Of a DNA stretch of 52,230 bases, positions 26,854 through 47,461 are shown in pieces. The translations under genes were made by a program, and so were the position numbers. Positions within the stretch are counted from its first letter, which is position 1. Each line of letters begins with the position of its first letter. This DNA is from an uncultured Alphaproteobacteria bacterium (GTDB taxonomy: Bacteria > Pseudomonadota > Alphaproteobacteria > HIMB59). Location: assembly GCA_902591315.1 (NCBI GenBank), contig CACJAI010000007.1:1-52230 (forward strand), in the 5' to 3' direction. The notes under the pieces are model-generated. The model saw only the letters and a program-made list of their open reading frames with translations, was not told the DNA's origin and did no database searches.

Positions 26854-27084
26854 TTAATCAATGATTATAGCAACAGTACCAGGGCTTACACCCTCTTGGT
26901 CGTTCCCAATGTTAACTTGAGTTATCGTTCCACTAACTGGAGCGTTATGATTGACCTCTGATTTCATAACTTCCATAATAAATAATATATCCCCCTCACT
27001 TACTTCATCACCAACTTCTACTAAAACTTTCCATATGTTACCTGGAACTGACGTTAAAACTTCTGTAGACATATTATATGACAC
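26854..27084 (-). CDS. Biotin carboxyl carrier-like protein
   Basis: This 76-residue protein is a single biotinyl/lipoyl domain. The modification segment is IMEVMKSEVNHNAP: the E-x-M-K-x-E pattern with methionine before lysine points to biotin rather than lipoate. It overlaps the PxpC-like gene by 11 bases. With the biotin carboxylase at 33198 it provides a two-part carboxylating system whose carboxyl transfer would be done by the PxpB/PxpC-like pair, as in urea carboxylase. Confidence 0.87.
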   Translation of the reverse strand: MSYNMSTEVLTSVPGNIWKVLVEVGDEVSEGDILFIMEVMKSEVNHNAPVSGTITQVNIGNDQEGVSPGTVAIIID

Positions 27085-29310: not shown

Positions 29311-31095
29311 TTAAAAATATTTAACTTTAATTTTTTCTTTGCTCTTAGGTTTATCTGTAAAATCCACTACTTTGACATTTGTAGGTACTGTCGGTTTAAT
29401 TATTTTATTTTGAATTTCCGCATTACTATTAGAATTATGATTTGAATTTTTTGTGCTTGATAAATTATTATCATTAGATTTCTTTTGAGTATGACCAAAC
29501 ATTCCCTCAAGGATAGTATTTGGATTGATATCCTCTTTTTCAAATGTCTCAAATATACTCCCATCCCTAAAAACCAAAACTCGATGACATAGTCCTATGA
29601 ATTCCTCGAGTTCACTTGATAGAAATATCGCTGTACCACCTTCATTTACAAAATTTCTTAAGTGCTTATATAAGTCTCGTTTTGCACCAACATCAATCCC
29701 TCGCGCTGGATCGTTAAGTATCAGTATCTTTGGAGTTGTTGTGAAAGCTCTGGCAATCATGACTTTTTGCTGATTTCCTCCACTCAATGATGTAATTAGA
29801 TTATTTTTTGGACCTGTCTTAATACTTAATCTTTCTACTTCCCAATCAAAAATACCGTTTAATTCCATCCATTTAATAAAACCAATAAATCCACCTGATG
29901 TTTTAGCTTGTTTTCCTTTATATAAGGGTATCACCATATTTTCATATATGCTCATGTTAGGAAAAATACCCTCTTTTTTTCTATCTCCAGATACGTATCC
30001 AACTCCACTTTTCTTGGCATCTAACAAGCTATTAACAGTTGTGTAATCTTTCTTGGTTCTTTCTCGTTCCTCATCAGACTGTTTAACAATTACTTCTCCG
30101 CTAAGTGGTTGATCAATACCTGCCAGAGCCTTAACAAAATTATCTTGTCCTTGTCCATCAAGTCCTGTGACTCCAAGTATCTCACCTTTTGGTAGGTCAA
30201 AGTTAATAACATCTCCATTGTCCCAAACTTTTAAATCTTTAGCAGACAAAACTATTTCATCTAAGATTGAGTCTGGAGGTGTAGCTTTTATTTCTGATGC
30301 TGTAGAAAATTTTTTATCACCTGTCATAAGTCCGAGAAGATTTTTTTCAGTAATTTCCTCTCCTGCTAAAACTCCAACATCAACCCCATCTCTCATAACC
30401 GTTGCTCTATCGCTTATTCTAACTAGCTCTGCAATTCTGTGAGTAACTATAAATATTGCTGCACCTTGATCTCTTAATGTTCTCATTTTTGCAAAAAGTC
30501 TTTCTGTAGAGTCAAAATCGAGTGCAGCTGATGATTCATCTAAAATTAGTACTTTAGGATTTCTTAAAAATGCTCTACCAATTGTTATCCAAGCTTTCAT
30601 ACCAAGCGATAATTGACTTGCTATTGTATATGGATCGACAAATTCACCGGATAGCTCTAACATTATAGAGGCAGCTTTTTCGACCCTATCTCGATGTGCT
30701 AATTTTTTTCCAAAAAAAGAGTCATATCCAATAAATAAATTTTCATAAACAGTAGCCTCTTCAGCTATCATTACTTCTTGAAAAACTGTTGCAATGCCAA
30801 CTCTTTGGGCTTCAATTGGGGAATTGGGTGAATGACCCATAATAGAGACCTTTCCTTTGTCCAAAGGTAAAACTCCTGAAATAACCTTTGCCAATGTGCT
30901 CTTACCACATCCATTACCTCCAACAATGGCGTGGATTTCACCAAAGTTAGCTTTAAAATTTACACCGTTTAGAGCTTTTGTAACACCAAAGGATTTTGAT
31001 GCATCTTGAACATAAATATCCCCTCCAACTTTAGAGGAGTTAGACTGTGCCCCATTCCCGTTTGGGGCACTGTCCAAAGTTTTTTCTTCATTCAT
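29311..31095 (-). CDS. Sugar-type ABC transporter double ATPase with Asn-rich C-terminal tail
   Basis: This 594-residue protein has two nucleotide-binding domains. The first has Walker A GGNGCGKST, a poor signature (LSLGMKAW) and Walker B ILILDESSAALD. The second has LSGGNQQKVMIARA and LNDPARGIDVGAK. RbsA-like ATPases are about 500 residues; here about 35 N-terminal and 65 C-terminal residues are extra. The C-terminal tail is Asn/Ser/Lys-rich and ends in KIKVKYF. It follows the binding-protein gene by 12 bases. The matching permeases are on the other arm of the divergent locus (34706 and 36983). Confidence 0.9.
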   Translation of the reverse strand: MNEEKTLDSAPNGNGAQSNSSKVGGDIYVQDASKSFGVTKALNGVNFKANFGEIHAIVGGNGCGKSTLAKVISGVLPLDKGKVSIMGHSPNSPIEAQRVGIATVFQEVMIAEEATVYENLFIGYDSFFGKKLAHRDRVEKAASIMLELSGEFVDPYTIASQLSLGMKAWITIGRAFLRNPKVLILDESSAALDFDSTERLFAKMRTLRDQGAAIFIVTHRIAELVRISDRATVMRDGVDVGVLAGEEITEKNLLGLMTGDKKFSTASEIKATPPDSILDEIVLSAKDLKVWDNGDVINFDLPKGEILGVTGLDGQGQDNFVKALAGIDQPLSGEVIVKQSDEERERTKKDYTTVNSLLDAKKSGVGYVSGDRKKEGIFPNMSIYENMVIPLYKGKQAKTSGGFIGFIKWMELNGIFDWEVERLSIKTGPKNNLITSLSGGNQQKVMIARAFTTTPKILILNDPARGIDVGAKRDLYKHLRNFVNEGGTAIFLSSELEEFIGLCHRVLVFRDGSIFETFEKEDINPNTILEGMFGHTQKKSNDNNLSSTKNSNHNSNSNAEIQNKIIKPTVPTNVKVVDFTDKPKSKEKIKVKYF

Positions 31096-31107: not shown

Positions 31108-32268
31108 TTAAAGTAATGCTTCTCCACGATCGAAGAAATTATTTAGATATTCATCACTTGCCCAGTTTTCAATTCCAACAGTTCTAAACTCACTTGAGTT
31201 TCTGTCACAATCTTCAGGAACAAAAGACTGAATAGTCTCAACATCTTCTTCATATGGAGGAACTAAAATAGACTGGATTTTAAGGCCCTGACCATACATA
31301 GTTCTTAAAAGAACATTCATCGCAAACTCTGCATCATCTCCAGGAGGCCATGCATAGACCGCTCTGTCGATAAAGTCTGGATTATTTCTCCAATAGCAGA
31401 ATGCACCAATTTCTCCACCCAAAGCCATAGGCACCATTGGTCTTCCAGATGATTCTAGAGCGTTAAGTGCTCCGGACTCTCCTGAAGACTGAACAGCAAA
31501 TCCGTCAACTTGAGTTGTGTTAGCTGATAACCATTTTTGAAGTTCAGCTTGAGCAATTTGTGGTGTCCACATGTGTGCAATTTCAGCAACAACAGTAATG
31601 TCTGGATATTCTGCAAATCCATCTAGCATACCTTGGTGCTGTGAGTCAGATGCTGATGTTCCAGGAATTCCTTCCATTATAACAACATTACCTTCACCAC
31701 CAATAGTTTCTGCTAACCATTGTGCAATATAATATCCGGTTAATTTGTAGTTAACAGATGTACTGATAGCATATTCTGAAGTTAAGTATCCTGTCATTGA
31801 TGCAGTAGGAACACCTTTTCCGTACGCATACTCAATAGTTGGATTTAATGCAACAGGATTTGAGCAACAGACTATTAATCCATCAACTCCTTGATCAGTT
31901 AACTGTCTCATTTGTTGAATTTGAACCGCGTCTTTTAGATTAGATTGTGTAACAACGATATCGTTAAGAATACCTGCTGCTTTCATTTTTGGTAAATAGT
32001 CACCATACAATCTTTCCATCACACCTTTTCTCCATAGATTACCTGCGTAAGAACTTGCATAACCGATAGTCCAAGGAAGTGGTCTATCACTTTTCCAATT
32101 TCTGTATACACTTTCACCAAGCGGTTGGTTAGGATCCATAAAGTCAGGATTATAAACGAAGTCTCTAATATCAGCTGGAATTTCGTCTAAAATGTCAGCA
32201 TTTAAGTTACCTGCGACACCGACAAAACTAACAGCTAAAATAGCTATGAACTTTTTAAGCAATGTCAT
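31108..32268 (-). CDS. Sugar-type ABC transporter substrate-binding protein
   Basis: The ATG at 32268 is preferred: it is preceded by GAGGATAAAACT and gives a proper signal peptide (MTLLKKFIAILAVSFVGVAG, cleavage near NLNA). An upstream ATG at 32349 would add 27 residues in front of the signal. The 386-residue protein has the type I periplasmic-binding fold (TIGYASSYAGNLWRKGVMER start, then QMRQLTDQGVDGLIVCCSNP), as in ribose/autoinducer-type binding proteins. Because enzyme genes for a carboxylase/5-oxoprolinase-like complex are interleaved, its ligand may be an amide or lactam and not a sugar; this is inference. Confidence 0.9.
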   Translation of the reverse strand: MTLLKKFIAILAVSFVGVAGNLNADILDEIPADIRDFVYNPDFMDPNQPLGESVYRNWKSDRPLPWTIGYASSYAGNLWRKGVMERLYGDYLPKMKAAGILNDIVVTQSNLKDAVQIQQMRQLTDQGVDGLIVCCSNPVALNPTIEYAYGKGVPTASMTGYLTSEYAISTSVNYKLTGYYIAQWLAETIGGEGNVVIMEGIPGTSASDSQHQGMLDGFAEYPDITVVAEIAHMWTPQIAQAELQKWLSANTTQVDGFAVQSSGESGALNALESSGRPMVPMALGGEIGAFCYWRNNPDFIDRAVYAWPPGDDAEFAMNVLLRTMYGQGLKIQSILVPPYEEDVETIQSFVPEDCDRNSSEFRTVGIENWASDEYLNNFFDRGEALL

Positions 32269-32415
32269 AGTTTTATCCTCCTTACTTATATATAAGTATC
32301 TATAATAATACCTATATTCTGAAAAATATAAGCAAAATTGTTCCAACATGTGGAAAAGATTTTCACATAAAAGCCTGATTTTCTGTAAATTATAAATGAG
32401 AGGAATTTATTATTC
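32269..32415. promoter_or_regulatory. Divergent promoter region of the transporter-carboxylase locus
   Basis: These 147 bases lie between two divergent translation starts and must control both arms. Two overlapping inverted repeats are visible: TTCCAACATGTGGAA at 32341-32355, and the near-palindrome TGTGGAAAAGATTTTCACA at 32349-32367, whose arms differ by one extra base. Either could be a repressor or activator site. No regulator gene is encoded within the locus. Confidence 0.6.
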
Positions 32416-33201
32416 ATGGTCGATTTGAATTGCGATATGGGTGAGGGTTTTGGTATTTACTCCTTCGCAGATGACGAAGAAATAATGCCTTATATAGATG
32501 CTGCTAATGTAGCCTGTGGGTTTCACGCCTCAGACCCAAACACAATGAGGAAAACTGTCGAGCTTGCAAAAAAATATGATGTGAAAGTTGGATCGCACCC
32601 TGCCTATCCTGACTTAGTGGGATTTGGAAGAAGGCCAATGAAAATGAGGCGTGATGAAATCAAAAATCTTGTGATGTATCAAACTGGTGCGATCAAAGCC
32701 TTTCTAGATGAGTATGGAATGCCATTAAACCATATCAAACCTCATGGGTCTTTATATGGTGTCTCTGCGAAAGAGGAAGATGTGGCTCATGGAATTGCTG
32801 ACGCAGCTGAAATTTTTAATGTTGGTATTTTCGGAATGGTTAATACCTTCCACGAAAAAGTATACAAAGAAAGAGGGGTAAAATTTTACGGAGAATTTTA
32901 CTCTGACTTGGAATATGATGAAACAGGTTATTTGGTTATCGCCAAGGGTCGAAATAAATATTATCCAACTGATAGAGCTGTGGAGCGTTGTTTAAGAGCA
33001 ATGAATGAAAATAAAGTTAAAACTGTTCAAGGAAACGATGTAGTTGTAGGATGTGAAACAATTTGTGTCCACTCTGACACTCCTAATGCTGTAGAAATCT
33101 TAAAGGCTCTGAGAGAAAAAATTTCCACTGATAAAAAAATTCCACAAAAAACTTCAAACGGCAATCATACTAAAATGCCTTATATCGTTGATAAGAAATG
33201 A
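32416..33201 (+). CDS. pxpA: LamB/YcsF family protein, PxpA-like
   Basis: This 261-residue protein opens with VDLNCDMGEGFGIYSFADDE, and then has NVACGFHASDPNTMRKTV and VGSHPAYPDLVGFGRR, all diagnostic of the LamB/YcsF family. In E. coli and Bacillus the family member PxpA is the third subunit of ATP-dependent 5-oxoprolinase, together with PxpB and PxpC. Both partners are present here on the other arm of the divergon. Family members are also found beside biotin carboxylases in lactam and amide catabolism. It overlaps the biotin carboxylase start by four bases. Confidence 0.9.
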   Translation: MVDLNCDMGEGFGIYSFADDEEIMPYIDAANVACGFHASDPNTMRKTVELAKKYDVKVGSHPAYPDLVGFGRRPMKMRRDEIKNLVMYQTGAIKAFLDEYGMPLNHIKPHGSLYGVSAKEEDVAHGIADAAEIFNVGIFGMVNTFHEKVYKERGVKFYGEFYSDLEYDETGYLVIAKGRNKYYPTDRAVERCLRAMNENKVKTVQGNDVVVGCETICVHSDTPNAVEILKALREKISTDKKIPQKTSNGNHTKMPYIVDKK

Positions 33202-34700
33202 AAAAAATTTTAATTGCTAATCGCGGTGAAATAGCAAATAGAATTATAAAAAGTTGCAAAATATTAGGTCACAAATCTGTAGCTGTTTATTCAGATGCAG
33301 ATAAGAATTCAAAGCATGTAAGATTATCTGACGAGTCTTATTATATAGGACCTAGTAAAGCTCAGGAAAGTTATCTTTCTTACAATAAAATTTTAGAAAT
33401 AGCTACAAAATCAAATGTGGATGCTATTCATCCTGGTTTTGGTTTTTTATCAGAAAACGACAATTTTGCTCAAGAGGTCATAAACAGAGGTATCACATGG
33501 ATTGGCCCTAAACCAAAATCAATAAAATCAATGGGAAATAAGGATATTGCTCGTGAATTAGCCCTAAATTCCAATATTCCTATATGTCCAGGTATAAATA
33601 ATGTTCACAAATTAAGTGATGAACAACTTAAGACAAAATGTGAAGCAATAGGTTACCCTTTACTTGTAAAATCAAGTGCTGGTGGTGGGGGGATAGGCAT
33701 GAGCGTCGTCCAAAATTTTAAAGACCTAGCTAGTGCAATTGAAAAAACTAGTAATCTTGCTGCAAAATCTTTTGGTAATGGAGATATTTTTATTGAGAAA
33801 TTTATCACCAACGCCCGACATATTGAAATACAAGTTTTTGGATTTGGTGCAAAAGGATCTGTCCATCTGTTCGAAAGAGATTGCTCTATGCAAAGAAGAT
33901 ATCAAAAGATAATTGAGGAGTCTCCGGCACCAGAAGTAGATAGGGAATTAATTAACAATATGGCTCAAGCCGCTGTAAAATTATCTTCTGATGTAAAATA
34001 CGAAGGAGCAGGTACTGTAGAGTTTATATATGATGTCCAAGAAATGAAATATTATTTTCTTGAGATGAATACAAGAATTCAAGTTGAACATCCTGTTACA
34101 GAGTTAGTGACAAATAATGATTTAATTTCCATGCAAATAAATTTTGCTTTTAATAGAAAAAATAAATTTTTAAATCAAAATAAAATTAAAACTTATGGAC
34201 ATTCAATTGAATGCAGAGTCTACGCAGAGGACCCTTCTCAAAATTTCTTACCATCTCCAGGGAAAATAACCAAATTAAAATTTCCTAAAATACCAAATGG
34301 CATTAGATTAGATTGGGGATACGATGAAAGAGATGAAGTAAGTTTCTATTATGATCCGATGATAGGAAAAATTATATCTCACGACTTAATTCGAGATGAT
34401 GCTATATCCAAATTAATAAAGTTTTTAGAAGGCACCCAGATTGAGGGCATTAAGACAAACATTCCCTTTTTAATTTGTCTTCTCAAAGACAAAAACTTCA
34501 TAGAAGGTAAACACAATACTAAATATATCGAAAACAATTTAAACACTCTTATTAGTAAGACATCTTTTAAAAATGGTTTTGCTAAAAATATTGATTTGGA
34601 CTCAAAGAGAATTAAAATTGTTGAAACAGACAAGCTTAAAGTGGGTCATGGAAGATCGCAGTCTGACAGAGGGGGTATCAAAGTCGTCTATTTTGACTAA
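33198..34700 (+). CDS. Biotin carboxylase (AccC-like) subunit
   Basis: This 500-residue protein is a complete ATP-grasp biotin carboxylase. It shows KKILIANRGEIANRIIKSCK, IHPGFGFLSENDNFA, the glycine loop KSSAGGGGIGMSV, RDCSMQRRYQKIIEESPAP and the catalytic EMNTRIQVEHPVTE. It is about 50 residues longer than AccC, with a C-terminal tail ending IKVVYFD. It is in an operon with pxpA and two transporter permeases, so it is more likely the carboxylase part of a substrate-specific urea-carboxylase-like enzyme than the fatty-acid enzyme. Its carrier protein would be the 76-residue protein encoded at 26854. Confidence 0.88.
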   Translation: MKKILIANRGEIANRIIKSCKILGHKSVAVYSDADKNSKHVRLSDESYYIGPSKAQESYLSYNKILEIATKSNVDAIHPGFGFLSENDNFAQEVINRGITWIGPKPKSIKSMGNKDIARELALNSNIPICPGINNVHKLSDEQLKTKCEAIGYPLLVKSSAGGGGIGMSVVQNFKDLASAIEKTSNLAAKSFGNGDIFIEKFITNARHIEIQVFGFGAKGSVHLFERDCSMQRRYQKIIEESPAPEVDRELINNMAQAAVKLSSDVKYEGAGTVEFIYDVQEMKYYFLEMNTRIQVEHPVTELVTNNDLISMQINFAFNRKNKFLNQNKIKTYGHSIECRVYAEDPSQNFLPSPGKITKLKFPKIPNGIRLDWGYDERDEVSFYYDPMIGKIISHDLIRDDAISKLIKFLEGTQIEGIKTNIPFLICLLKDKNFIEGKHNTKYIENNLNTLISKTSFKNGFAKNIDLDSKRIKIVETDKLKVGHGRSQSDRGGIKVVYFD

Positions 34701-34705
34701 TTATA

Positions 34706-36979
34706 ATGGTTAATCAACTTGTAGCAGCAATAAAACCCTCTCAAATTCCGGGTTCTGATCCTCAGTCAACAAAATACTTAATCGTTCCAATATTTATATT
34801 TTTTGCCCTAATGATTTTTGCAATGATTAGAGGACCACAAATAATTTCAGGCTCGGGTATTGGAACTGCAATTATGGTTTCAACACCCCTTATTCTTGCT
34901 ACTTATGCTCTTACCGCGTTGGCTTTAGCCGGCAGAGTGACAGTCGATTTATCAATAGGACCGCTTATTGGGTTTATAAATGTAACTACAATACAACTTT
35001 ATGCTGCAGGCTATATTCAATCGCCAGTTGCATATTTCATATGTGCTCTTGCAATAGGAGTAATTTACCAATTTCTTTATGCCTTAATCGTAATTTTTAT
35101 AAGAGTTCAACCAATAATAGTTGCCTTAAGTATGTTTCTTGCTTTTTCTGGTATAAATTTAGTTATTTTACCAAGACCAGGAGGAAGAGCACCTGATTGG
35201 ATGTTATCATGGAGTGCTGGAACAGAGGTAGTACAACCCACACTAATACTTTTAATTTTCTCGACACTTATTTGGTACGCACTAACTCATACTGCTTACT
35301 GGCAACATTTAAAATTAATGGGTTCAGATGAAAAGTCTGCTTACACAAGTGGAGTGAGAATTTACGTTGTAAGAATTGGTGCTCATATTATTGGCGGAGT
35401 ATACGCTGCACTCGCAGCTATTGCATTTACAGGTTTAATTGGTTCCGGAGACCCAACTCAAGGTACTACTTATACATTGATGGCAGTCACAGCACTTGTA
35501 TTAGGCGGGTCAAGTTTAATTGGTGGAAGAGGTGGTGCGTTTGGAGCTATTCTAGGTTCAGTTAACATTTATTTGATAAATTTTATTCTATCAACTTTCA
35601 GGTTTGAAAGATTTCAAAGTTTCGTTACAGACTTATCATACGGTGCGGTATTGGTGGCTTCTCTTTTAATACTTATTGCACTTCCCTATATTCAAAAAGC
35701 ATTTAAAAATTTATCAGTTTTTGTATTTTTTATTATTGGAACATTAAGTGCTGCTGCTGTTCAAATTCATATGAAATTTGATCAAGTCACTAGAGGGACT
35801 GTGGGAGGTTTTGGAGGTAAATCTAAAGATGCTGAGATTTTTGAAAAAGCTCTTGAATCTGGAAGTGATTGTCTAATCACAGGTAAAGCATGTGCTGAGG
35901 GTGGAAATTCTACAGTGTGGATGTTTATTGCTATTGGAATAGCATCCCTGATTTATCTTGTTTATTTACTTGTAAAACATAGAGACGGGCCAACAGTGTC
36001 TTTTATTATTGCAGCAATTGTTATTTTCTTCGGTTGTGTATGGAGTGGCACGAGAGAGGCTTATTTCGTTAACGCTGATTTGGGCACAAACTTACAATAT
36101 ATTTTAAATTATGCTCCTCAGTATTTTACATCTGAATATCTAAGAGTTGGTGCAGGATTACCTGATTTTTCATCTTCCTCGAGTGCTTTGGTTGGCCTCG
36201 CTTACGCTTTAGCAACTTTAGGAGGAATAGTTTTCTTTACATCTGCGATAGTAATAATTGCTATGCCAAGATTTAGAAAAGAAATCAAAACACAAACATT
36301 GGTATTATTTGCAATAGCAATTTCATTTATTGTATTTGCTGCAATATCTTATTACGGAATTGAGTCAAATAGACAGAGTTTCTTTGGGATAGATGGATAC
36401 GCTGTAATACTAATTTTATTTTTACTTTTTTTACTCACGGCACCAACTCTTTTCTCGAATATCAATTTGAATAATGTTTTCATTATTTTCCTTGGTGTAT
36501 TAGCAATACTCGCTGTTTACTTTTTAGCTTCACCTTCTGGAACAATTATTACTGATGATGGAAGTAAGTTTTACTCTCCAATTATTACAGAATTAATTGT
36601 TGGCGATACATCATCAATTAACTATACAAGACCTATACGAGGAGAACTTATCACAAGTGATATTACTTGGCTTAAAGAAGCAGCTCTAATTATATTTGCA
36701 ATATTTGTATTTCAATTTTTTACATATTTAACAATGGGAGCAAAAATATCATTCGCTAGATTCAGACCTTACATTGCTATTTTAAGTATAGCTGCATTAA
36801 CATGGTCAGCGATGTTCTTCGCAATTGGTTATCCTTATTGGAAAATGATTTTAATTACTGCAATTGGAATAGCTATTTCGCCTCTGATATGGCAAGCGTT
36901 TGGTGTTTATAAAATAAAATTAAAATCTCAAGAAGGACTTGAAAAATGGGGAGGTCTATCAGAAGATAGAAAAGTTTAG
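34706..36979 (+). CDS. ABC transporter permease with large extra membrane domain
   Basis: The protein is 757 residues, more than twice the normal RbsC length. Residues about 30-335 are a typical CUT2 permease (RVTVDLSIGPLIGF, and VLGGSSLIGGRGGAFGAILG near residue 275). Residues about 340-757 hold roughly ten further hydrophobic helices separated by short loops and by one polar soluble segment (around 360-400, with CLITGKACAEGG). The second half lacks a recognisable repeat of the permease motifs. It is followed three bases later by a second permease, so the transporter is binding protein 31108, ATPase 29311 and these two permeases. The extension may form extra scaffold or translocation helices. 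Confidence 0.85.
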   Translation: MVNQLVAAIKPSQIPGSDPQSTKYLIVPIFIFFALMIFAMIRGPQIISGSGIGTAIMVSTPLILATYALTALALAGRVTVDLSIGPLIGFINVTTIQLYAAGYIQSPVAYFICALAIGVIYQFLYALIVIFIRVQPIIVALSMFLAFSGINLVILPRPGGRAPDWMLSWSAGTEVVQPTLILLIFSTLIWYALTHTAYWQHLKLMGSDEKSAYTSGVRIYVVRIGAHIIGGVYAALAAIAFTGLIGSGDPTQGTTYTLMAVTALVLGGSSLIGGRGGAFGAILGSVNIYLINFILSTFRFERFQSFVTDLSYGAVLVASLLILIALPYIQKAFKNLSVFVFFIIGTLSAAAVQIHMKFDQVTRGTVGGFGGKSKDAEIFEKALESGSDCLITGKACAEGGNSTVWMFIAIGIASLIYLVYLLVKHRDGPTVSFIIAAIVIFFGCVWSGTREAYFVNADLGTNLQYILNYAPQYFTSEYLRVGAGLPDFSSSSSALVGLAYALATLGGIVFFTSAIVIIAMPRFRKEIKTQTLVLFAIAISFIVFAAISYYGIESNRQSFFGIDGYAVILILFLLFLLTAPTLFSNINLNNVFIIFLGVLAILAVYFLASPSGTIITDDGSKFYSPIITELIVGDTSSINYTRPIRGELITSDITWLKEAALIIFAIFVFQFFTYLTMGAKISFARFRPYIAILSIAALTWSAMFFAIGYPYWKMILITAIGIAISPLIWQAFGVYKIKLKSQEGLEKWGGLSEDRKV

Positions 36980-38374: not shown

Positions 38375-38498
38375 AAATAATGAGTTTAATCAACAGATTT
38401 TGTCGCTTTTACAATGAATATTTATTTCAAAATATGAAACAAAAATTATTATTAATTAAAGAGGACGGTTAATATGTACTTAAGAGGAATAAGTTTTA
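38375..38498 (+). promoter_or_regulatory. Leader region of the rhodopsin operon with a short upstream reading frame
   Basis: This 124-base A/T-rich gap precedes the rhodopsin. Within it a 10-codon reading frame (ATG at 38474, stop TAA at 38504-38506) has its own GAGG ribosome binding site at 38461 and ends by overlapping the rhodopsin start. The rhodopsin ATG at 38499 is served by AGAGGA at 38483-38488, which lies inside the short frame. This layout allows translational coupling. No promoter boxes could be assigned. Confidence 0.5.
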
Positions 38499-39200
38499 AT
38501 GAATAAAATGCTTCTCCCTTACGACATTGTAGGGGGGTCTTTCTGGTTAATTTCTGTTGGCATGATTGGTGCCACCCTATTTTTCTTTTTTGAGCGCAGC
38601 AAAGTAAGCTCGAGATTTCATACACCGATGACAATGATAGCTGTTGTATGTTTGATGTCCTCTATACATTATTTCTTCGTAAAAAATCTCTGGGTAGTCA
38701 GCGGCACCGCCCCAACTTTATTAAGATATATAGATTGGTTTCTTAACTTTCCAATGCTTGTACTTATTTTTTATGCAATGCTTATGTCAGTTGTCAAAGT
38801 TAAACAAGGCATGTTCTGGAGATTATTGGTTGGAACTTTAGTTTTTGTTGTAGCAGGTTTCTTAGGTGCAGCGGGTTATATGAGCAAGACATTAGGTTTC
38901 ATTGTTTGGTTGGCTGGATGGTTGTACATCCTTGGTGAGCTATATGTTGGAGAGGCTGGAAGAGCAAATGCTAGATGCGGAAACGAAAATGTACAAATGG
39001 TTTTCTTCTCGAACAGACTTATTATAACAATTGGATGGGCTATATATCCAATGGGATATTTCATAGAGCATTTGGGTGGGGGTATTGATCCCAACAGTGT
39101 TAATGTGATTTATAATTTAGCAGACTTTTTAAATAAAATAGTTTTTGGTTTAATAATTTACAAAGCAGCAATACAAGACATGAGAGTTAATGGACAGTAA
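38499..39200 (+). CDS. Proteorhodopsin-family microbial rhodopsin with non-canonical DNI motif
   Basis: This 233-residue seven-helix protein aligns along its length with proteorhodopsins. Lys213 (in LADFLNK) is the retinal Schiff-base lysine and Asp209 its partner aspartate, His57 matches His75 of proteorhodopsin, and RYIDW contains Asp79, the proton acceptor (position 97). The second and third key residues are Asn83 (Thr101 position) and Ile90 (Glu108, the usual proton donor). Leu87 occupies position 105, where leucine or methionine gives green absorption. An Ile donor position predicts a slow photocycle, a sensor role or an unusual pump. Unlike many proteorhodopsins it has no signal peptide. 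No retinal-synthesis gene is adjacent. It is 27 bases upstream of the flotillin-like gene. Confidence 0.9.
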   Translation: MNKMLLPYDIVGGSFWLISVGMIGATLFFFFERSKVSSRFHTPMTMIAVVCLMSSIHYFFVKNLWVVSGTAPTLLRYIDWFLNFPMLVLIFYAMLMSVVKVKQGMFWRLLVGTLVFVVAGFLGAAGYMSKTLGFIVWLAGWLYILGELYVGEAGRANARCGNENVQMVFFSNRLIITIGWAIYPMGYFIEHLGGGIDPNSVNVIYNLADFLNKIVFGLIIYKAAIQDMRVNGQ

Positions 39201-39227: not shown

Positions 39228-41216
39228 ATGAACATTACTAGTGGTGCAGATATTATTGCAATAATAATCTTAATAGCGTTAGCAATAGCAATTATAGTTT
39301 ACTTGCTACATTGGCTGTACAGGCGTTCCTCAAAGGAAATAGCGTTTGTTAGAACTGGTATGGGTGGTGAACAAGTTGTGATCAGCGGAGGTGCCTTCGT
39401 TTTACCTATTATTCATAACATTACCTCAGTGGGTATGAAAACTCTTTGTATAGAGGTTCAACGAAACGGCAGTAAATCTTTTATTACAAAAAATAGAATG
39501 AGGGCAGAAGTAACGGCTGAATTCTATGTAAGAGTAGCTCCTACAACTGAAGCAGTCTCAATAGCCGCGCAAACATTGGGAAATAGAACATTAGAGCCTG
39601 ATCATTTAAAGGAGCTTGTTCAAGGTCGATTTGTTGATGGACTAGGTGTTGTAGCCGCAAAAATGAGCCTTGATGAAATTCAAGAGAATAGATCTGAGTA
39701 CATTAAAAATGTTGCAGCTCATGTTGAAGAAGCTATTAAGCACACTGGTTTGGAGTTAGAGACTGTTTCATTGACATCTCTTAACCAAGCACCCGTGGGT
39801 GTATTCGACCCTTCAAATACATTTGATGCTGAGGGTTTAACTCAAATAACAGAATTTACTCAGTCACGTAAAAAGAAAAGAAATGATATTGAGAAAGATA
39901 CAGAGGTAAGTATTCGAAATAAAAACCTCCAGTCAATCAAGCAAACTCTTGAAATTGAAAAAGAGGAAGAATTTTCAAAGTATCAACAAAAACGTGAAAT
40001 CGAACAACAAAGAGCTATTGAAAATACTGAGACAGTAAAAACAAAAGCTGAGAAAGACAAAGAGTCTGAGCTGGCTGAAATCTCTTCAGAAAAAGATATT
40101 GAGATTGCAAAGATTAGCAAGAAAGACTTTGTTGAGATGGAAAAAAGTTTACAAGAAACTAAACTTATCCAAGAAATTGAGAAAAGAAGAAAAGAACAAA
40201 ATGAGTTTAAACAACAAACTTCTATCGAGATTAAACAAAAAGATATTGAGACAGAAAAAACTATTCTTGAATTAGAAAGAGATGTTGAATTCAGTCGTCT
40301 AGAAAAACAAAGATCAGTTGATATCAAACTTGCTGAGGAAAAAGCTCAAACAGCAAAAGAAGAAGCTAGAAAAAGGTATGAGTCTGAAGAGGCTTATATT
40401 ATGGCTGAGGAGCAAATTAAAAATGCAAAAACTGCTCAACAGAAAAATGTTGATGCGTTCAAAATTGCTGCTGAGCAAGAGACAAGAGTCTTAGATATTG
40501 AAAAGGCAAAAAGAATAGAAATTGAAGAAAAGCAAAAACAAATGGAAGTTCTAGAAAAATCTAAGTCAGTCTTAAAAACTAAAATGGAAGAAGAAAATGC
40601 TCGCGCTAAGGCTGTAGAAGCTGAGGAAAAAGTAAACACCATTAGAGATGTTGAACAAGCTGAGAAGACAAAAGCTCTTGGAGTAATAGACGCTAGTAAA
40701 AATGCTGAGAGAGAAAAGTTAGCATCGATGGCTGCAAAAATTAGATATGAAATTGAAGCAGCTGGCAAAAAAGCCCTTAATGAAGCAGAAAATGCTAGAA
40801 GTGATGCAAGTAGAAGAAGTGCACTTAGACAAAAACTCGCTGAAAAAATTGAGGGTATTATTAGAGAATGGGTTAGACCAATGCAAAACATTGACTCAAT
40901 TAAAGTTGTCGATGTAAATGGATTACCTGGATTTAGTCAAGGAGGAGGTGCTGAAGGAAGCGGCAACGCTGATAACCCCTCTGCGTCCTCAGGTGGATAT
41001 TCCAAAAAAGGATCTTTAGCAGATAATGTTGTGAATTCTGCTCTTCGATATAGAGCACAACAGCCGTTCTTAGATAGTCTTTTAAAAGAAATTGGTATGT
41101 CGCCCGGTGAGGCAAGTAATATCAGGAATATTTTAGGTGACTACGATGATCCTAAGAAGGACAAGCATATGAGATTTGATGAACAAGCCACAAAGACACC
41201 CAGGAAAAAGAAATAG
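39228..41216 (+). CDS. Flotillin-like SPFH membrane scaffold protein (YqiK type)
   Basis: This 662-residue protein has one N-terminal membrane helix (IIAIIILIALAIAIIVYLL), an SPFH domain (about residues 35-220, with GGAFVLPIIHNITSVGMKT and ALTAEFYVRV-like segments), and a very long Glu/Lys/Ala coiled coil (about 225-560). Near residue 570 is a Gly/Ser linker, followed by a C-terminal segment with QQPFLDSLLKEIGMSPGEA. These are features of bacterial flotillins such as E. coli YqiK, which organise membrane microdomains. A strong GGAGGT ribosome binding site precedes the start. It sits between the rhodopsin and the SCP2-like gene. Confidence 0.88.
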   Translation: MNITSGADIIAIIILIALAIAIIVYLLHWLYRRSSKEIAFVRTGMGGEQVVISGGAFVLPIIHNITSVGMKTLCIEVQRNGSKSFITKNRMRAEVTAEFYVRVAPTTEAVSIAAQTLGNRTLEPDHLKELVQGRFVDGLGVVAAKMSLDEIQENRSEYIKNVAAHVEEAIKHTGLELETVSLTSLNQAPVGVFDPSNTFDAEGLTQITEFTQSRKKKRNDIEKDTEVSIRNKNLQSIKQTLEIEKEEEFSKYQQKREIEQQRAIENTETVKTKAEKDKESELAEISSEKDIEIAKISKKDFVEMEKSLQETKLIQEIEKRRKEQNEFKQQTSIEIKQKDIETEKTILELERDVEFSRLEKQRSVDIKLAEEKAQTAKEEARKRYESEEAYIMAEEQIKNAKTAQQKNVDAFKIAAEQETRVLDIEKAKRIEIEEKQKQMEVLEKSKSVLKTKMEEENARAKAVEAEEKVNTIRDVEQAEKTKALGVIDASKNAEREKLASMAAKIRYEIEAAGKKALNEAENARSDASRRSALRQKLAEKIEGIIREWVRPMQNIDSIKVVDVNGLPGFSQGGGAEGSGNADNPSASSGGYSKKGSLADNVVNSALRYRAQQPFLDSLLKEIGMSPGEASNIRNILGDYDDPKKDKHMRFDEQATKTPRKKK

Positions 41217-41225
41217 GTATAAAAC

Positions 41226-41615
41226 ATGAGTATAGATGTAAAATCCTGGGCAAAAAAATATAAAGAGCTTACTGAAAAAGATGAAACCATAAAAGCGATG
41301 GCTAAATATTATACTTGTTCATTTCTTTTCGACATGGGTAGTGTGAAAGTAATTATCGAGATGCATGATGGAAAGGTAAAAAATATTAATACCAACCCTG
41401 GAGGTTTAGATCCATATGACTTTGCATTAAGGGCATCAGAGCAAACATGGAGAGAGTTTGCAAAGCCTGTTCCAAAACCTATGTTTCATGGTATCTATGC
41501 AGCCTCATTTAGAGAAGACCTTAAAATCGAGGGCAATCATTTAGTCTTAATGCAAAATCTTAGAAACTTTACTGTTCAATTTGAATTGCTAAGACAATCA
41601 GGAGTCCCAGTATGA
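41226..41615 (+). CDS. SCP2-like sterol/lipid-carrier domain protein
   Basis: This 129-residue protein has no signal peptide and reads like a small SCP2-fold domain: KVIIEMHDGKVKNINTNPGG near the middle, then FALRASEQTWREFA and LKIEGNHLVLMQNL. SCP2 domains carry hydrophobic ligands or form the substrate-binding part of multi-domain enzymes. It lies nine bases after the flotillin-like gene and 25 bases before an alpha/beta hydrolase, so it belongs to the same operon. A role in presenting a hydrophobic substrate is inference. Confidence 0.65.
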   Translation: MSIDVKSWAKKYKELTEKDETIKAMAKYYTCSFLFDMGSVKVIIEMHDGKVKNINTNPGGLDPYDFALRASEQTWREFAKPVPKPMFHGIYAASFREDLKIEGNHLVLMQNLRNFTVQFELLRQSGVPV

Positions 41616-41640: not shown

Positions 41641-42504
41641 ATGGCAGTAAAACATCATGACCCAATAGGTAGATACGTTACCATCGAGGTAGATGGTCAA
41701 CAGTATAAAGTCTTTTATCTTTCAAATGGAAAAGGCACTCCATTAGTATGTCAGCATACTGCTGGATGCCACAATCATCAGTGGAGAGGATTACTGGAAG
41801 ATGAAGAAATTACTCAAAACTATCAAGTTATCGCTTACGACCTTCCAAGACATGGTAAATCAGATCCACCTCATAATACAGAATGGTGGAAAGAGGAGTA
41901 CAAATTAACAGCAGAGCATTACTGTAATTTTATTGTAGAACTTTGTAAGGCCTTAGACCTTGAAAACCCTATATTTATGGGTTCTTCTTTTGGAGGAAAC
42001 GTGGCTCTTCAATTAGCTCTGAAGTATCCTAATAAATTTAAAGCTGTCATTCCTGTAGAGGCTGCGCATTATTCCCCTGGCTTTTATATTGATTGGTGGA
42101 GGCACCCTCATGCCAATGCAGCTCAAGTGTGTGGTAGTGGTGTTTGGGATTTAATGGCCCCACAATCTCCAGATATGGATAGATGGTTAACTTGGCATTA
42201 TTACACTCAAGGATCAGAGGCTTTTAAAGGAGACCTTCATTTTTATTCAGTTGATCATGATTTAAGAGATGAGCTTCAAAATATCGATGGTCACAAGTGC
42301 CCTGTTATCATGCTGACTGGTACTTATGACTACCTAACCCCTCCCGAAGCAACAGAAGATACTGCCAGACAAATAAAAGGAGGAGTTTATATTGAAATGA
42401 GAGATATTGGTCATTTCCCGATGAGTGAAAACCATGAAGTCTTTAGAGTATATTTATTAGAGGCACTCAGAATTATTAAGGAAAAGACTGATTACAACTC
42501 TTAA
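41641..42504 (+). CDS. Alpha/beta hydrolase
   Basis: This 287-residue enzyme has the alpha/beta-hydrolase fold with the nucleophile elbow G-S-S116-F-G (in MGSSFGGNVALQ), the acid in TGTYDYLTPPEA and the catalytic histidine in DIGHFPMSEN. An early oxyanion-like segment is QHTAGCHNHQWRG. Esters, lactones or amides are possible substrates. It is read in the operon with a symporter and the dimethylformamidase-type enzyme, so it probably handles the same or a related amide/ester compound. A good ribosome binding site (GAAAGGAAAAATTT) precedes the ATG. Confidence 0.88.
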   Translation: MAVKHHDPIGRYVTIEVDGQQYKVFYLSNGKGTPLVCQHTAGCHNHQWRGLLEDEEITQNYQVIAYDLPRHGKSDPPHNTEWWKEEYKLTAEHYCNFIVELCKALDLENPIFMGSSFGGNVALQLALKYPNKFKAVIPVEAAHYSPGFYIDWWRHPHANAAQVCGSGVWDLMAPQSPDMDRWLTWHYYTQGSEAFKGDLHFYSVDHDLRDELQNIDGHKCPVIMLTGTYDYLTPPEATEDTARQIKGGVYIEMRDIGHFPMSENHEVFRVYLLEALRIIKEKTDYNS

Positions 42505-42518
42505 TTCAAGTTTGAGTT

Positions 42519-44573
42519 ATGGTCGCTAATCTTTATTGGTTTTTTTTCTTTCTTGTCCTATATATAAGCTTTTGTCTTTTTTGGGGAGCTAGAACTCTTA
42601 GAAAAAATAAAACCCCTGAGGCTTACTATTTAGCAGATAGAAGTGTATCTCCTTGGGTATTCTTTTTCTCTGCAACAGTAACTACATTTGCAGGCATAAC
42701 TATCATTTCTTTTCCATCATTAATTTATGCAGATGGATACTCTTTTCTAGCTACTGCTGCAATTGTAATAACAATTCCTCTCGGAAGTATACTATTTTTT
42801 AAAAGGCAGTGGATGCTAAGTAGAAAATTTAATTTTATCACTCCAGGAGAGATGTATTATAAATATTATCAAAGTAATACTCTTAGAATTGTAGTACTAA
42901 TAATCGGATTATTTTTTGCTGTTCCATTTCTTGGTATAATTATTGGATCAACAGGTAATGTTGTAGAGTTTATTAGCGGAGGTGAAATAACTAGAGACTC
43001 TGCAATGTGGGCACTAACTGCTGTTGTCTTATTTTATATTGTATCTGGTGGATTTAAACCCATGGTGAGTGTAAGCGTTGTTCAATCATGGTTATTTTTT
43101 GTTTTTTTCTTAGCACTTGGTGTTGGTGTATTTAATTACTTAGGAGGTTTAAGTTTTTTTGAAGACCTATCTATGGCGAATAGCTTTATATCTTTCGGAG
43201 CTTGGGGAACTACTGGAGGTTACGGAGGTGGTGATATTTCAGGATATTTCAACGTTCCTGGTGTAATTCAGTGGGTTGCAGGTATTGGAAAAAACAACCC
43301 ATTAGGAGGACCTTGGACAGCAGTTATGATTTTATCCTTTACTCTCTCTTATATGGGTATTGTGCTTTCTCCTACATTTTCGATGTGGAGCTATTCAGTA
43401 AAATCACCGAGGTCATTTTATTTTTATCAAGTTTGGGGTTCAGGTGCTGTTGTTGGAATATTTTTATTTATATTCGCCCCTTTATTAGGTGTAGGAGCAC
43501 ATCTTCTTGGAGCTAATAGTATTGTTAATTCAAATGGTTTTGCCATTAACCAAATATTCCCTGAGCTAAGTCTACAAAATATATCATCTTTAATTTATGT
43601 GTTTGTTGAAAGTTTCAGTAATCTCTCACCAATCATTGTTGGATTTTTAGCAATATCCATAATTGCTGCTCTTCAATCTACATTATCTGCTTTTTTAATG
43701 ACCTCAGGCAGCATGGTGGCAAGAGATCTCTATAGACCATATATCGATAGTAACCCTACATGGAAAAGGGAGTTATTAGTTGCTAGGTTAGCGATGTTGT
43801 TATTAAGCTTAGCGGCGCTGTATCTTGCAACTTTTTTTGAAACTTCTCTAATACTACTTGGTGGATTAGCAATCGCTTTTGGTTTCCAATTGTTTCCTGT
43901 TTTACTTGGAATGCTTTGGTTTAAATGGATCACAAGAGGTGGGGCAATTCTTGGACTCATCACCGGATTAGGTTTTGTAACTTTAGCTGAAACTTTTGGT
44001 CATAAGCTAACAGGAAATTCTCTTCCTTGGGGGCGATGGCCACTAACAATCTACTCTGGGTTATGGGGTTTATTCTTTAATGTGATTGTTTGTTTTTTAT
44101 CCTCTATATTTGCAAGTAATGATACAGATAAAGAACATCGAGCGTCATTTCATAATTTTTTAAATGAACATATGGGTATTCACCCATCAAGAAAAAAAAT
44201 AAAATCTCTTGCTTATGTCTTCTTTTTAATTTGGGCATTCTTCTCTATCGGCCCGGGTTTAATTTTCGGAAACTTAATATTTGGTAGTGCGGATCAAAGT
44301 TATGATAATTGGGTGATGGGAGTCCCTTCACTATGGGCTTACCAAATAATTTGGTGGGTAGCGGGTATATTTCTAATTTGGTTTTTAGCCAATAAGATGG
44401 ACTTATCGACTTTGCCAAAAAAACCCATACTAAATGGTGATGAACATTTGGCACCTGACGATGTTGAGGAGCAAGGAAACTATATTGATAGAATGGGAGG
44501 AGGGTATGGTTGGCCACTTATATTAATAGGTATGGCTGTGGCAACTGTAATACTTTCCGTTTATGCATTATGA
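42519..44573 (+). CDS. Sodium:solute symporter (SSS family)
   Basis: This is a 684-residue membrane protein with about 13-14 helices. The early TPEAYYLADRSVSPWVFFFSATVTTFAG segment (with the A-x-x-R region) and the later AALQSTLSAFLMTSGSMVARDLY segment are typical of SSS transporters. It is longer than most (usually about 500-600), because of an extended loop and two or three extra C-terminal helices. It would import the compound acted on by the downstream amidohydrolase, with sodium as driving ion; the solute cannot be named. It lies 14 bases after the hydrolase gene. Confidence 0.9.
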   Translation: MVANLYWFFFFLVLYISFCLFWGARTLRKNKTPEAYYLADRSVSPWVFFFSATVTTFAGITIISFPSLIYADGYSFLATAAIVITIPLGSILFFKRQWMLSRKFNFITPGEMYYKYYQSNTLRIVVLIIGLFFAVPFLGIIIGSTGNVVEFISGGEITRDSAMWALTAVVLFYIVSGGFKPMVSVSVVQSWLFFVFFLALGVGVFNYLGGLSFFEDLSMANSFISFGAWGTTGGYGGGDISGYFNVPGVIQWVAGIGKNNPLGGPWTAVMILSFTLSYMGIVLSPTFSMWSYSVKSPRSFYFYQVWGSGAVVGIFLFIFAPLLGVGAHLLGANSIVNSNGFAINQIFPELSLQNISSLIYVFVESFSNLSPIIVGFLAISIIAALQSTLSAFLMTSGSMVARDLYRPYIDSNPTWKRELLVARLAMLLLSLAALYLATFFETSLILLGGLAIAFGFQLFPVLLGMLWFKWITRGGAILGLITGLGFVTLAETFGHKLTGNSLPWGRWPLTIYSGLWGLFFNVIVCFLSSIFASNDTDKEHRASFHNFLNEHMGIHPSRKKIKSLAYVFFLIWAFFSIGPGLIFGNLIFGSADQSYDNWVMGVPSLWAYQIIWWVAGIFLIWFLANKMDLSTLPKKPILNGDEHLAPDDVEEQGNYIDRMGGGYGWPLILIGMAVATVILSVYAL

Positions 44574-44678: not shown

Positions 44679-45107
44679 ATGTCTGATTACAGCTACAAGC
44701 ATCCCTCTAACGTTCAGTTAAATAAAGGACATAAACACACGGATGATTTTATTACTAAAAAATACATTTTAAAAATGTTGAGAGATCCTCAAAAATTAAA
44801 ATCTTTAATTGAAGAACACAGAGCAACCCCAGTTGGAAGGGCTGCTACTCGAGACCATGGCGTCATTCAGCACAGCCAAGATCTTCAAACATTATTAGAT
44901 AAGTTAAGAAGAGGAAGTAAAGAAAATGGTTTTGTAACTGTTTGTTTAAGAAGACATGAAGATTATAGAGTTGGAATAACAACAGGAGTTAGAGGTGAGC
45001 CAGTTGAAATAACTGAAGACTCTTATTCATCTGAAGAGGCATGTGAACATGCAATATTTTTAAAAAGAATTAACAGACTTCTTGAGGAGTATAGTGGGGA
45101 AGAGTAA
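44679..45107 (+). CDS. dmfA1: N,N-dimethylformamidase-type amidohydrolase, small subunit
   Basis: This 142-residue protein matches the small (alpha) subunit of N,N-dimethylformamidase in size (about 132 residues in Paracoccus) and in place: it directly precedes the large subunit, sharing one base (TAATG). It has a central segment KENGFVTVCLRRHEDYRVGI and an acidic C-terminus. In the known enzyme the small subunit caps the iron-containing large subunit in an alpha2-beta2 unit. Substrate here is probably a formamide or other small amide, not necessarily dimethylformamide. Confidence 0.75.
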   Translation: MSDYSYKHPSNVQLNKGHKHTDDFITKKYILKMLRDPQKLKSLIEEHRATPVGRAATRDHGVIQHSQDLQTLLDKLRRGSKENGFVTVCLRRHEDYRVGITTGVRGEPVEITEDSYSSEEACEHAIFLKRINRLLEEYSGEE

Positions 45108-47461
45108 TGTTAAAAATAACAGGTTATAGTGATAAGTACTCAGCTCATCCAGGTGAAGAGGTTAAATTTTATATTAATGCTGAATACAATGATAGTTATG
45201 AAGTTCAATTAGTCCGTCTTATACACGGTGATACAAATCCTGAAGGCCCTGGGTATAAAGAAGCTGAAATAGATGCCAGTTGTAATGGAACTTATCAAGG
45301 GAAAAACCAGAGAATACATGGTGGATCGTACATCATCATGCCTCAGCATGATAATTTAAATTTAGAGAGCTTTACTATGCAAGCTTATATTTTTCCTACA
45401 ACGCCAGATAAAGGTAGACAAGGAATTTTCACTAAATTTAATGAAGAAGAAAAAAAAGGCTATGGTCTCTTTATTAATGATGAGGGATGTTTATCTGTAG
45501 AAATAGGAGATGGATCTCAGGTTGTAACTGTCTCCTCAGAAAAAAAACTTTTAAGAAAAGTCTGGTATCTGGTAATTGCAACTTTTGATGCACAATCAAG
45601 AAGGCTTACCCTTCACCAAGAACCCAGGGTTACATCCACAAATGGTGGTTTAGGTATGGCTATTTTGAATCCAATTGAAGAAACCTCAGCTATTATTGAG
45701 ACCACTAGTTCAGTTTTACCTGCCGCTAATGATGCTCCATTGTTAATTGCAGCTACTACATTAAATAATAGATCTGCTAGGCACATTTCCGGAGGTCATT
45801 TTAAAGAGGTACCTCATCCCATTGAATTACCTGAGCAAACCAAGACTTTTAATGGCAAGATAGATAGACCTAGATTATCTAATATTGCTTTATCTAAGGC
45901 TGAGATCGAAACACTTGCATCAAGCTATGATGAGTGTAATACCACTGTGAGGTCAACAGTCGTAGGCGCTTGGGACTTTCATGCAAATATTGGCAAAAAC
46001 ATTGCTTCAACAAAGATTGTTGATACTTCTCCAAATAATCACCACGGATTTATTATTAACATGCCAAACAGAGGTATGACAGGACATAACTGGACAGCGG
46101 ATGAAATGGTTTTCCATCACAAACCTGAAGAGTACGGTGCTATCCATTTCCATGATGATGATATTGATGATGCAAGATGGGATGTTGATTTTAAATTAAA
46201 AATCCCAGAGGGTCTGAAAAGTGGTGTGTATGCTGCTCGACTTAGAGTTGATGGAAGAGAAGAGTCAGAAAATGAAGATTATATTCCTTTTTGTGTAAAA
46301 CCTCCAAAAGGGACAGCCACAGCTAAAATTTTATTTCTCTTACCCACAAACAGTTATATGGCTTACTCCAATGATAATCTTGGAACTAATTCTGTCGTAG
46401 CTCAATTACTCGCAGGTAAAGTTCCTGTGCTAGAACCTGCAGATTTATATTTAAATGAACACAGAGAATATGGTTTATCAACTTACTCACTTCACTCTGA
46501 TGGACATGGTGTATCTATTTCATCAAGACTTAGACCAATCCTTAATATGAGACCTAAATACAGACACTGGCTTTCTCCATCATTATGGCAACTAAATGCT
46601 GACTTACATTTAACAGACTGGCTTGAGGAAAAGGGCTTTGAGTTTGATGTTCTTACAGATGAAGATTTGGAACATGAAGGTATAAATTTATTAAATCGTT
46701 ATAAAGTTGTGATGACTGGAAGTCACCCTGAGTATTCATCTGAGAAATATATGGATGCCTTAGAGTCCTATCAAATGCAAGGTGGTAGATGTTTTTATTT
46801 AGGTTCGGATGGATTTTACTGGATTAGTGAATATCATCCAGACAACTCCAATATTACTGAAGTACGAAAAGGTGAGGCCGGAACTAGAGCATGGACATCT
46901 AATCCAGGTGAATACAATAATGCTTTTGATGGTAAATATGGAGGTATGTGGAGAGCTCGAGGAAGAATACCTTCTAAAGTTTGTGGTTTAACTTTTACAT
47001 CATATGGATTTGACGTTTCTTCATACTACAAAAGAGAAGAAGATAGTTTTAAACCTGAATGTTCATGGATCTTTGAAGGGATTGGAGCAGATGAGGTTAT
47101 TGGTGACTTTGGTTTAGTTGGTGGAGGAGCTGCCGGTTTAGAGTTAGACAGGTACGACTTAGAATTTGGTACTCCGCATAATGCTTATTATTTGGCTCGT
47201 TCACAAGATCACTCTAATATGATGTTGCAAGTTAACGAGGAGATACACTTTGCTGTTCGTGGCTATTATGGCGGTGGTCATGAAAATCCAATGGTAAGAG
47301 CTGATATGATTTACTATAAAACACCTAACAACGGAGCAATGTTTGCACCAGGTTCTTTGGCTTGGTGCGGTAGTCTTTCACATAATAATTATAATAATAA
47401 TGTCTCCAGAATTATGGAAAACACTCTTAAAGGTTTTTTAAAGGACGGACCTTTACCTTAA
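45107..47461 (+). CDS. dmfA2: N,N-dimethylformamidase-type amidohydrolase, large subunit
   Basis: This 784-residue protein has a LamG-like beta-sandwich (about residues 60-260, with LESFTMQAYIFPTTPDKG) followed by the DMFase catalytic domain with its amidotransferase-like fold. From memory of the Paracoccus enzyme, the iron is held by two tyrosines (399 and 440) and a glutamate (521), with His519 nearby. The matching residues here appear to be Tyr420 (in SYMAYSNDN), Tyr460 (TYSLHSDG), Glu542 and His540 (SHPEYSS), at an almost constant offset of 20-21. The catalytic site therefore looks intact. It hydrolyses amide bonds to a formate or acid and an amine. It is read with the small subunit upstream and small genes downstream. 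Confidence 0.82.
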   Translation: MLKITGYSDKYSAHPGEEVKFYINAEYNDSYEVQLVRLIHGDTNPEGPGYKEAEIDASCNGTYQGKNQRIHGGSYIIMPQHDNLNLESFTMQAYIFPTTPDKGRQGIFTKFNEEEKKGYGLFINDEGCLSVEIGDGSQVVTVSSEKKLLRKVWYLVIATFDAQSRRLTLHQEPRVTSTNGGLGMAILNPIEETSAIIETTSSVLPAANDAPLLIAATTLNNRSARHISGGHFKEVPHPIELPEQTKTFNGKIDRPRLSNIALSKAEIETLASSYDECNTTVRSTVVGAWDFHANIGKNIASTKIVDTSPNNHHGFIINMPNRGMTGHNWTADEMVFHHKPEEYGAIHFHDDDIDDARWDVDFKLKIPEGLKSGVYAARLRVDGREESENEDYIPFCVKPPKGTATAKILFLLPTNSYMAYSNDNLGTNSVVAQLLAGKVPVLEPADLYLNEHREYGLSTYSLHSDGHGVSISSRLRPILNMRPKYRHWLSPSLWQLNADLHLTDWLEEKGFEFDVLTDEDLEHEGINLLNRYKVVMTGSHPEYSSEKYMDALESYQMQGGRCFYLGSDGFYWISEYHPDNSNITEVRKGEAGTRAWTSNPGEYNNAFDGKYGGMWRARGRIPSKVCGLTFTSYGFDVSSYYKREEDSFKPECSWIFEGIGADEVIGDFGLVGGGAAGLELDRYDLEFGTPHNAYYLARSQDHSNMMLQVNEEIHFAVRGYYGGGHENPMVRADMIYYKTPNNGAMFAPGSLAWCGSLSHNNYNNNVSRIMENTLKGFLKDGPLP

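Follow-up and report, generated by a model that had tools for sequence, protein, structure and literature searches.

A D-N-I flotillin-associated rhodopsin in a HIMB59-type alphaproteobacterium, probably a retinal-free membrane partner of flotillin

The closest described relatives of the protein presented here are the FArhodopsins (flotillin-associated rhodopsins, FARs), a group named by Haro-Moreno et al. (2023; PMC10308929). These authors list the motifs DTT, DTL and DNI and assign DNI to HIMB59. Their criteria include the presence, at another place in the genome (in SAGs), of a bona fide DTE proteorhodopsin, and an N terminus 23 aa shorter than that of this paralogue. In the marine single-cell genomes of that study, the FAR is accompanied by a DTE pump, and its hosts are streamlined bacteria. 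On the basis of AlphaFold models, conserved FAR residues were proposed to clash with retinal; the portion of the article used here does not name these residues and mentions neither position 120 nor position 137. A second article on the same clade (PMC10308909) describes rhodopsin homologues without functional prediction and cites the FArhodopsin work.

DTT cousins have been expressed in E. coli, where they gave no visible pigment, no retinal binding and no pH change, and a DTE pump converted to DTT-T lost pumping (PMC5864233). The authors leave misfolding open. A solved member of the group, PsFAR (9r21), is deposited in the PDB together with its H84V/E120G double mutant (9r23, known here by its title).

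We analysed a stretch of 52,230 nucleotides from an uncultured HIMB59-type alphaproteobacterium (contig CACJAI010000007.1 of assembly GCA_902591315.1), referred to below as the window.

The rhodopsin, the flotillin and the surrounding gene cluster

The cluster contains the following genes (position in the window, strand, description):

27074..29305, minus strand, two carboxyltransferase genes (CT_A_B, CT_C_D)
29311..31095, minus strand, ABC transporter ATPase
31108..32349, minus strand, periplasmic binding protein of the CUT2 / ribose-binding type
32416..33201, plus strand, LamB_YcsF (PxpA-like) protein
33198..34700, plus strand, biotin carboxylase-like protein
34706..36979, plus strand, ABC permease (PF02653), 757 aa
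36983..38374, plus strand, ABC permease (PF02653), immediately preceding the rhodopsin gene
38499..39200, plus strand, rhodopsin, a FArhodopsin of 233 aa with D-N-I, open reading frame from ATG to stop
39228..41216, plus strand, flotillin, 662 aa (PF15975 and PF01145), 27 bases past the rhodopsin stop
41226..41615, plus strand, 129-aa protein with a sub-threshold SCP2 match (E 0.043), 76–79% identical in distant FAR clusters
41641..42504, plus strand, alpha/beta hydrolase, 82–88% identical in distant FAR clusters
42519..44573, plus strand, sodium:solute symporter family protein
44679..45107, plus strand, 142-aa protein, weak match to the N,N-dimethylformamidase small subunit (E 0.0083)
45107..47461, plus strand, relative of the N,N-dimethylformamidase large subunit (6lvb, E 5.8e-194)

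The rhodopsin scores 111.5 bits with the Bac_rhodopsin model (PF01036; cut-off 24.6, E 5.4e-32) and its closest solved sequences are 9r23 (E 7.9e-92) and 9r21 (E 4.7e-91), both entitled 'flotillin-associated rhodopsin'. NCBIfam models give a name neither to it nor to the flotillin. In a tree covering FARs and proteorhodopsins (43 of 86 aligned rows, picked by hand, mostly by dropping near-copies), a branch with support 100/99 separates the 18 FAR rows from all others, and the window rhodopsin lies inside this FAR clade within the proteorhodopsins. The protein is a FArhodopsin, and it is the adjoining flotillin gene, which the initial annotation of this DNA did not mention, that identifies the class. 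Both the class and the DNI motif have been known since 2023. The main claim to novelty of that annotation, which did not place the motif in a described class, therefore falls, and a new rhodopsin class is ruled out (PMC10308929).

The locus shows no essential difference from the marine HIMB59 FArhodopsins as presented in PMC10308929. These share the DNI motif, the flotillin directly downstream and the separate DTE proteorhodopsin, and their cluster likewise includes carboxyltransferases, a PxpA-like gene, N,N-dimethylformamidase and a symporter. Seven HIMB59-type and Pelagibacteraceae loci that we examined keep, together with the FAR and flotillin genes, those for the 129-aa protein, the hydrolase, the 142-aa protein, the N,N-dimethylformamidase-type large subunit and the sodium symporter. 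The DTT FArhodopsins of Pelagibacterales, 68–69% identical to the window rhodopsin, have the flotillin, 129-aa protein, hydrolase, amidase and symporter in common with it; the ABC importer and carboxylase genes of the window have no match in three Pelagibacterales DTT loci with flanks of up to 10 kb. Carboxylase genes are reported in Pelagibacterales clusters in PMC10308929. The genes at 44679–47461 probably encode a two-subunit amidase of the N,N-dimethylformamidase type, the match of the small subunit being weak. As a whole, the neighbourhood looks like one that serves to import amide- or lactam-type compounds and to hydrolyse them, these substrates being speculative.

When named genome contigs were scanned with the window rhodopsin, 48 loci were found, and in all of them a flotillin frame, in several cases cut by the contig end, starts 16–30 bases downstream of the FAR gene. 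Likewise, 28 FAR genes were found in 27 genomes (see below), and the contig of each also carries a flotillin match. Four genomes (G001, G013, G027 and G033) have flotillin matches but no FAR match, those of G001 and G033 being fragments at contig ends.

Several minor features were also observed. In locus L077 the flotillin frame stops after 256 aa and the contig continues, which reflects either an interrupted gene or a sequencing error. In three relatives, open frames of some 580 aa that lie away from the FAR contig match the flotillin family (G002:C1, G013:C52 and G024:C1). In the window, a ten-codon open reading frame with its own ATG (38474–38506) begins shortly before the rhodopsin gene in another frame, and its end overlaps the start of that gene; it is possibly a leader peptide or a means of translational coupling. 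A promoter scan returned 26 promoter-like sites where 32.2 were expected and so carries no information; terminator-like sites numbered 7 for 4.3 expected.

The motif and the retinal pocket

The window rhodopsin was aligned with bacteriorhodopsin (BR), the BR sequence used being identical to PDB 1o0a over 249 residues. The codons of interest are the following, all on the plus strand:

38733..38735, plus strand, D79 (BR D85), proton acceptor / counter-ion
38745..38747, plus strand, N83 (BR T89)
38748..38750, plus strand, F84 (BR T90), retinal pocket; V in the DTE loci, H in PsFAR
38757..38759, plus strand, L87 (BR L93), spectral-tuning site; Q in the sister sublineage
38766..38768, plus strand, I90 (BR D96), cytoplasmic donor site
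38844..38846, plus strand, F116 (BR M118), retinal pocket; M in the DTE loci
38856..38858, plus strand, G120 (BR G122), ring end of the pocket; E in the sister sublineage and PsFAR, Q in the DTT forms
38907..38909, plus strand, W137 (BR S141), ring end of the pocket; G in the other FArhodopsins examined, A/S in the f66 genus
39135..39137, plus strand, K213 (BR K216), Schiff-base lysine

The translation, which reads H57, D79, N83, L87, I90, D209 and K213, and the alignment, in which D209 further corresponds to BR D212, bear out the D-N-I motif and the loss of the donor acid noted in the initial annotation. No carboxylic donor is present at BR position 96. The acceptor Asp79, His57, Asp209 and the helix G Schiff-base lysine, Lys213, are intact, as had been stated.

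BR positions T89, T90, M118, G122 and S141 are those which we take to line the retinal. The window rhodopsin has N, F, F, G and W at these positions; in all 28 DTE loci, two of which (L032 and L098) come from the one genome G030, the corresponding residues are T, V, M, G and G. DTE proteorhodopsins, such as that of the same genome (L001) and those of PDB entries 9r22 (PsPR) and 4jq6, share the fold, the Schiff-base lysine, the acceptor Asp and the His with the window rhodopsin, but are 39–49% identical to it and differ in the donor Glu and in V84, M116, G120 and G137. PsFAR (58–59% identity) belongs to the FAR clade and also lacks the donor acid (DTM); it differs from the window rhodopsin in having H84, E120 and G137 rather than F84, G120 and W137, and F at the site of H57. 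The Pelagibacterales proteins are distinguished by DTT, W116, Q120, F180 and H184.

Two sublineages can be recognized among the closest relatives. That of the window (the window and 32 loci) has F84, L87, G120 and W137, whereas its sister (five loci, L060–L063 and L065) has F84, Q87, E120 and G137; either L or Q is given for the tuning site in PMC10308929. Leaving aside L064, whose match begins at residue 21, the two are separated by 14 fixed differences, four of which are in the pocket list: 87, 117 (a mild I/V change), 120 and 137. As E or Q at position 120 together with G at 137 is common to the sister group, the DTT forms and PsFAR, the changes E120 to G and G137 to W likely took place on the stem of the window's sublineage, an order that is our reading of the tree. 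It seems that a plug at the ring end of the pocket was kept while the residue filling it changed, E120 with G137 giving way to G120 with W137. In 9r23, two plug positions are changed to the DTE-type residues V and G (H84V/E120G).

The AlphaFold model of the window rhodopsin (mean pLDDT 57, pTM 0.53) is too poor for pocket geometry and the proposed block of the pocket is for this reason based on the alignment and not on coordinates. Judged in this way, the pocket appears to be filled by F84, F116 and W137, and binding of retinal by the DNI rhodopsin is unlikely. These bulky residues, together with the DTT cousins that formed no pigment (PMC5864233), make a retinal-free protein a better reading than a retinal-bound one. 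The initial annotation had concluded that the protein should bind retinal: the intact lysine, histidine and carboxylates on which it relied are indeed there, and the conclusion itself is doubtful given the bulk at positions 84, 116 and 137 and the behaviour of the DTT proteins.

Conservation and distribution of the FAR gene

Among the 48 named loci, 37 belong to the same lineage (87–100% identity) and 36 of these read DNI, the remaining one (L063) reading DNV. The motif is therefore kept in relatives, a check proposed at the outset, and neither a single mutated copy nor a sequencing accident can account for it. The other 11 loci are from Pelagibacteraceae (68–69% identity), ten with DTT and one with E-T-T. 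The latter (L075, 10001–10669) is a DTT-type FAR in which Glu replaces the acceptor Asp (RYIEW); its match starts at residue 7 of the window protein.

Relatives were searched in the genome of the window (G000) and 59 others. FAR orthologues (66–100% identity) are present in 26 of the 36 other genomes of the same genus, and most of the ten with no FAR match are incomplete; G030, a relative assembled in a single contig and 99% complete, lacks both a FAR and a flotillin match. No FAR orthologue was found in 23 genomes of another family, where matches reach at most 47% identity and the sole motif read (L113) is DTE. With G000 included, this amounts to 28 FAR genes, none with an internal stop, in 27 genomes. 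One gene (L084, 6374–7111 on G015:C23) is a second FAR of the Pelagibacteraceae type (DTT, 65–66% identity), with flotillin, in a genome binned in the HIMB59-type genus; the bin consists of about 150 contigs with 4% contamination, and L084 is perhaps a stray contig.

The FAR gene is under strong purifying selection. Values of dN/dS are 0.007 (window and L040), 0.017 (window and L056) and 0.030, 0.031 and 0.032 (three DTT pairs), as obtained from five of 12 pairs, dS being saturated or incomputable in the other seven. These values and the absence of stops inside the 28 genes rule out a pseudogene. As to a viral origin, none of the 21 candidate stretches picked up in viral contigs with the FAR alignment was a relative, and of 31 picked up with FAR and DTE sequences a single one (L124, 30% identity) was.

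The genome of the window also carries the second, DTE rhodopsin whose presence the initial annotation had suggested verifying. This proteorhodopsin, located on contig G000:C11 with Q at the tuning site, is accompanied by genes for Blh (PF15461), lycopene cyclase (crtY, PF05834) and phytoene synthase (crtB, PF00494), and the same contig carries a CrtI-like oxidoreductase (PF01593) and a polyprenyl synthase (PF00348). The N terminus of the window rhodopsin is 23 aa shorter than that of this copy, as judged from a 23-column alignment gap. A second rhodopsin, 45–49% identical to the window protein, is present in 22 of the 27 FAR genomes, its motif having been read in G000 (DTE). It was not found in the other five, namely G017, which is 94% complete, and G015, G016, G022 and G034, whose completeness does not exceed 86%.

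A sample of 385 genomes of the class was also searched. Some match occurs in 36, and most of those read, which were among the stronger ones, are DTE; outside the window's genus, FAR-like matches come from three genomes of a single family, f66. In the 11 genomes of this family, one match each is present in six of the seven members of one genus (G242, G335, G412, G440, G441 and G442; loci L121–L123, L088–L090 and L118–L120) and none in the other five genomes. The six genomes measure 4.0–4.5 Mb and are 95–97% complete, and the three stretches read have 63–66% GC. All three preserve the synteny of the cluster, with genes for a binding protein, an ABC ATPase, two permeases, the rhodopsin, the flotillin, the 129-aa protein and the alpha/beta hydrolase. 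Identity to the window is 54–56% for the rhodopsin, 48–49% for the flotillin, 79% for the 129-aa protein and 82–83% for the hydrolase, the last two being better conserved than the rhodopsin. All six rhodopsins have DTV, DTI or DTT with V84, A120 and A/S137, and a flotillin frame downstream; one (L089) has Q at the His-57 site. The three f66 rows in the tree are the first branch of the FAR clade, in a region where the tree program warns of long branches.

No second rhodopsin was detected with PF01036 in the three f66 genomes tested, and the FAR alignment found one match in each of the six. Blh was not matched in any of the 11 genomes of the family in a search in which the controls were also silent, the same model having matched G000, G004, G029 and G030. 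RPE65-family oxygenases and phytoene/squalene synthase-like genes are present in all six FAR carriers, so retinal production is possible in them. Since the f66 pocket is less crowded, loss of retinal by the pocket argument cannot hold for the whole FAR family. The f66 genus also qualifies both statements derived from marine genomes (PMC10308929), that of a DTE partner and that of streamlined genomes.

Possible functions of the FArhodopsin

Our preferred reading is that the FArhodopsin of this HIMB59-type alphaproteobacterium probably carries no retinal pigment, pumps no ions and acts as a membrane partner of flotillin. It would be a seven-helix protein derived from proteorhodopsin, with the donor acid lost and the pocket filled by F84, F116 and W137, and its partner would be the flotillin encoded 27 bases downstream. 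Together with the ABC importer and sodium symporter of the cluster, it could hold a membrane microdomain, or report its state, and these transporters could supply the neighbouring hydrolases with amide- or lactam-type compounds. This microdomain role is speculative, being drawn from gene linkage; one has likewise been proposed for FArhodopsins in PMC10308929. The suggestion of the initial annotation that a sensor or other function replaces that of a normal pump was, in our judgement, right.

The absence of retinal is inferred from the residues described above, and several observations speak against it. K213, D79, D209 and H57 are kept and would be needless in a retinal-free protein, genes for retinal synthesis are present in the genome, recruitment of the HIMB59 gene is highest in the upper photic zone, as would befit a light role (PMC10308929), and the proteins tested in E. 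coli were DTT forms that, according to their authors, may have been misfolded (PMC5864233). The retained residues, the retinal-synthesis genes and the sunlit-water recruitment would fit a protein that binds retinal in its native membrane, perhaps only with flotillin, and either senses light with a slow cycle or regulates the DTE pump by forming mixed oligomers with it, reprotonation being slowed by the missing donor. The frequent second rhodopsin, the less crowded f66 pocket and the heterocomplex idea of PMC10308929 fit it as well. We nevertheless consider it rather unlikely in view of the crowding by F84, F116 and W137 and the DTT cousins without pigment; the five FAR genomes without a second rhodopsin and the six f66 genomes in which the FAR is the sole match found also count against it.

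The retention of D79 and K213 would favour a new motif class of light-driven ion pumps or channels. In principle, moreover, there are pumps that lack a donor and cycle slowly. A carboxylic donor is absent from every FAR examined, however, the pocket is crowded, the DTT forms did not pump and conversion of DTE to DTT-T abolished pumping (PMC5864233), which together leave such an activity very improbable. As for a decaying or neutral paralogue, the lost donor, the changed pocket and the ten same-genus relatives without a FAR gene, most of them incomplete, could be read in this sense; this is contradicted by the low dN/dS in unsaturated pairs, and the lack of stops in 28 genes, the DNI kept in 36 of 37 same-lineage loci and the small genome also speak against it, so that we attach almost no weight to it.

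A further-reaching, tentative reading concerns the history of the group. FArhodopsins might be proteorhodopsins turning into retinal-free scaffolds of a nutrient-uptake microdomain. Loss of the donor would have come first (f66), followed in the marine lineages by plugging of the pocket, and in the window's sublineage W137 would have taken over from E120 as the plug; we regard this course as possible, if doubtful. If true, the shift of the plug would show selection for a filled pocket and not simple loss. The window rhodopsin touches on the question of which role an opsin that is abundant and strongly conserved would have if light is not used. Unlike the class and the motif, which are known, neither the plug swap nor the f66 genus was found described in the parts of the FArhodopsin literature searched. 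For bench work, the f66 genus, in which the FAR is the sole rhodopsin found and the pocket is less crowded, may be more suitable than the marine forms.
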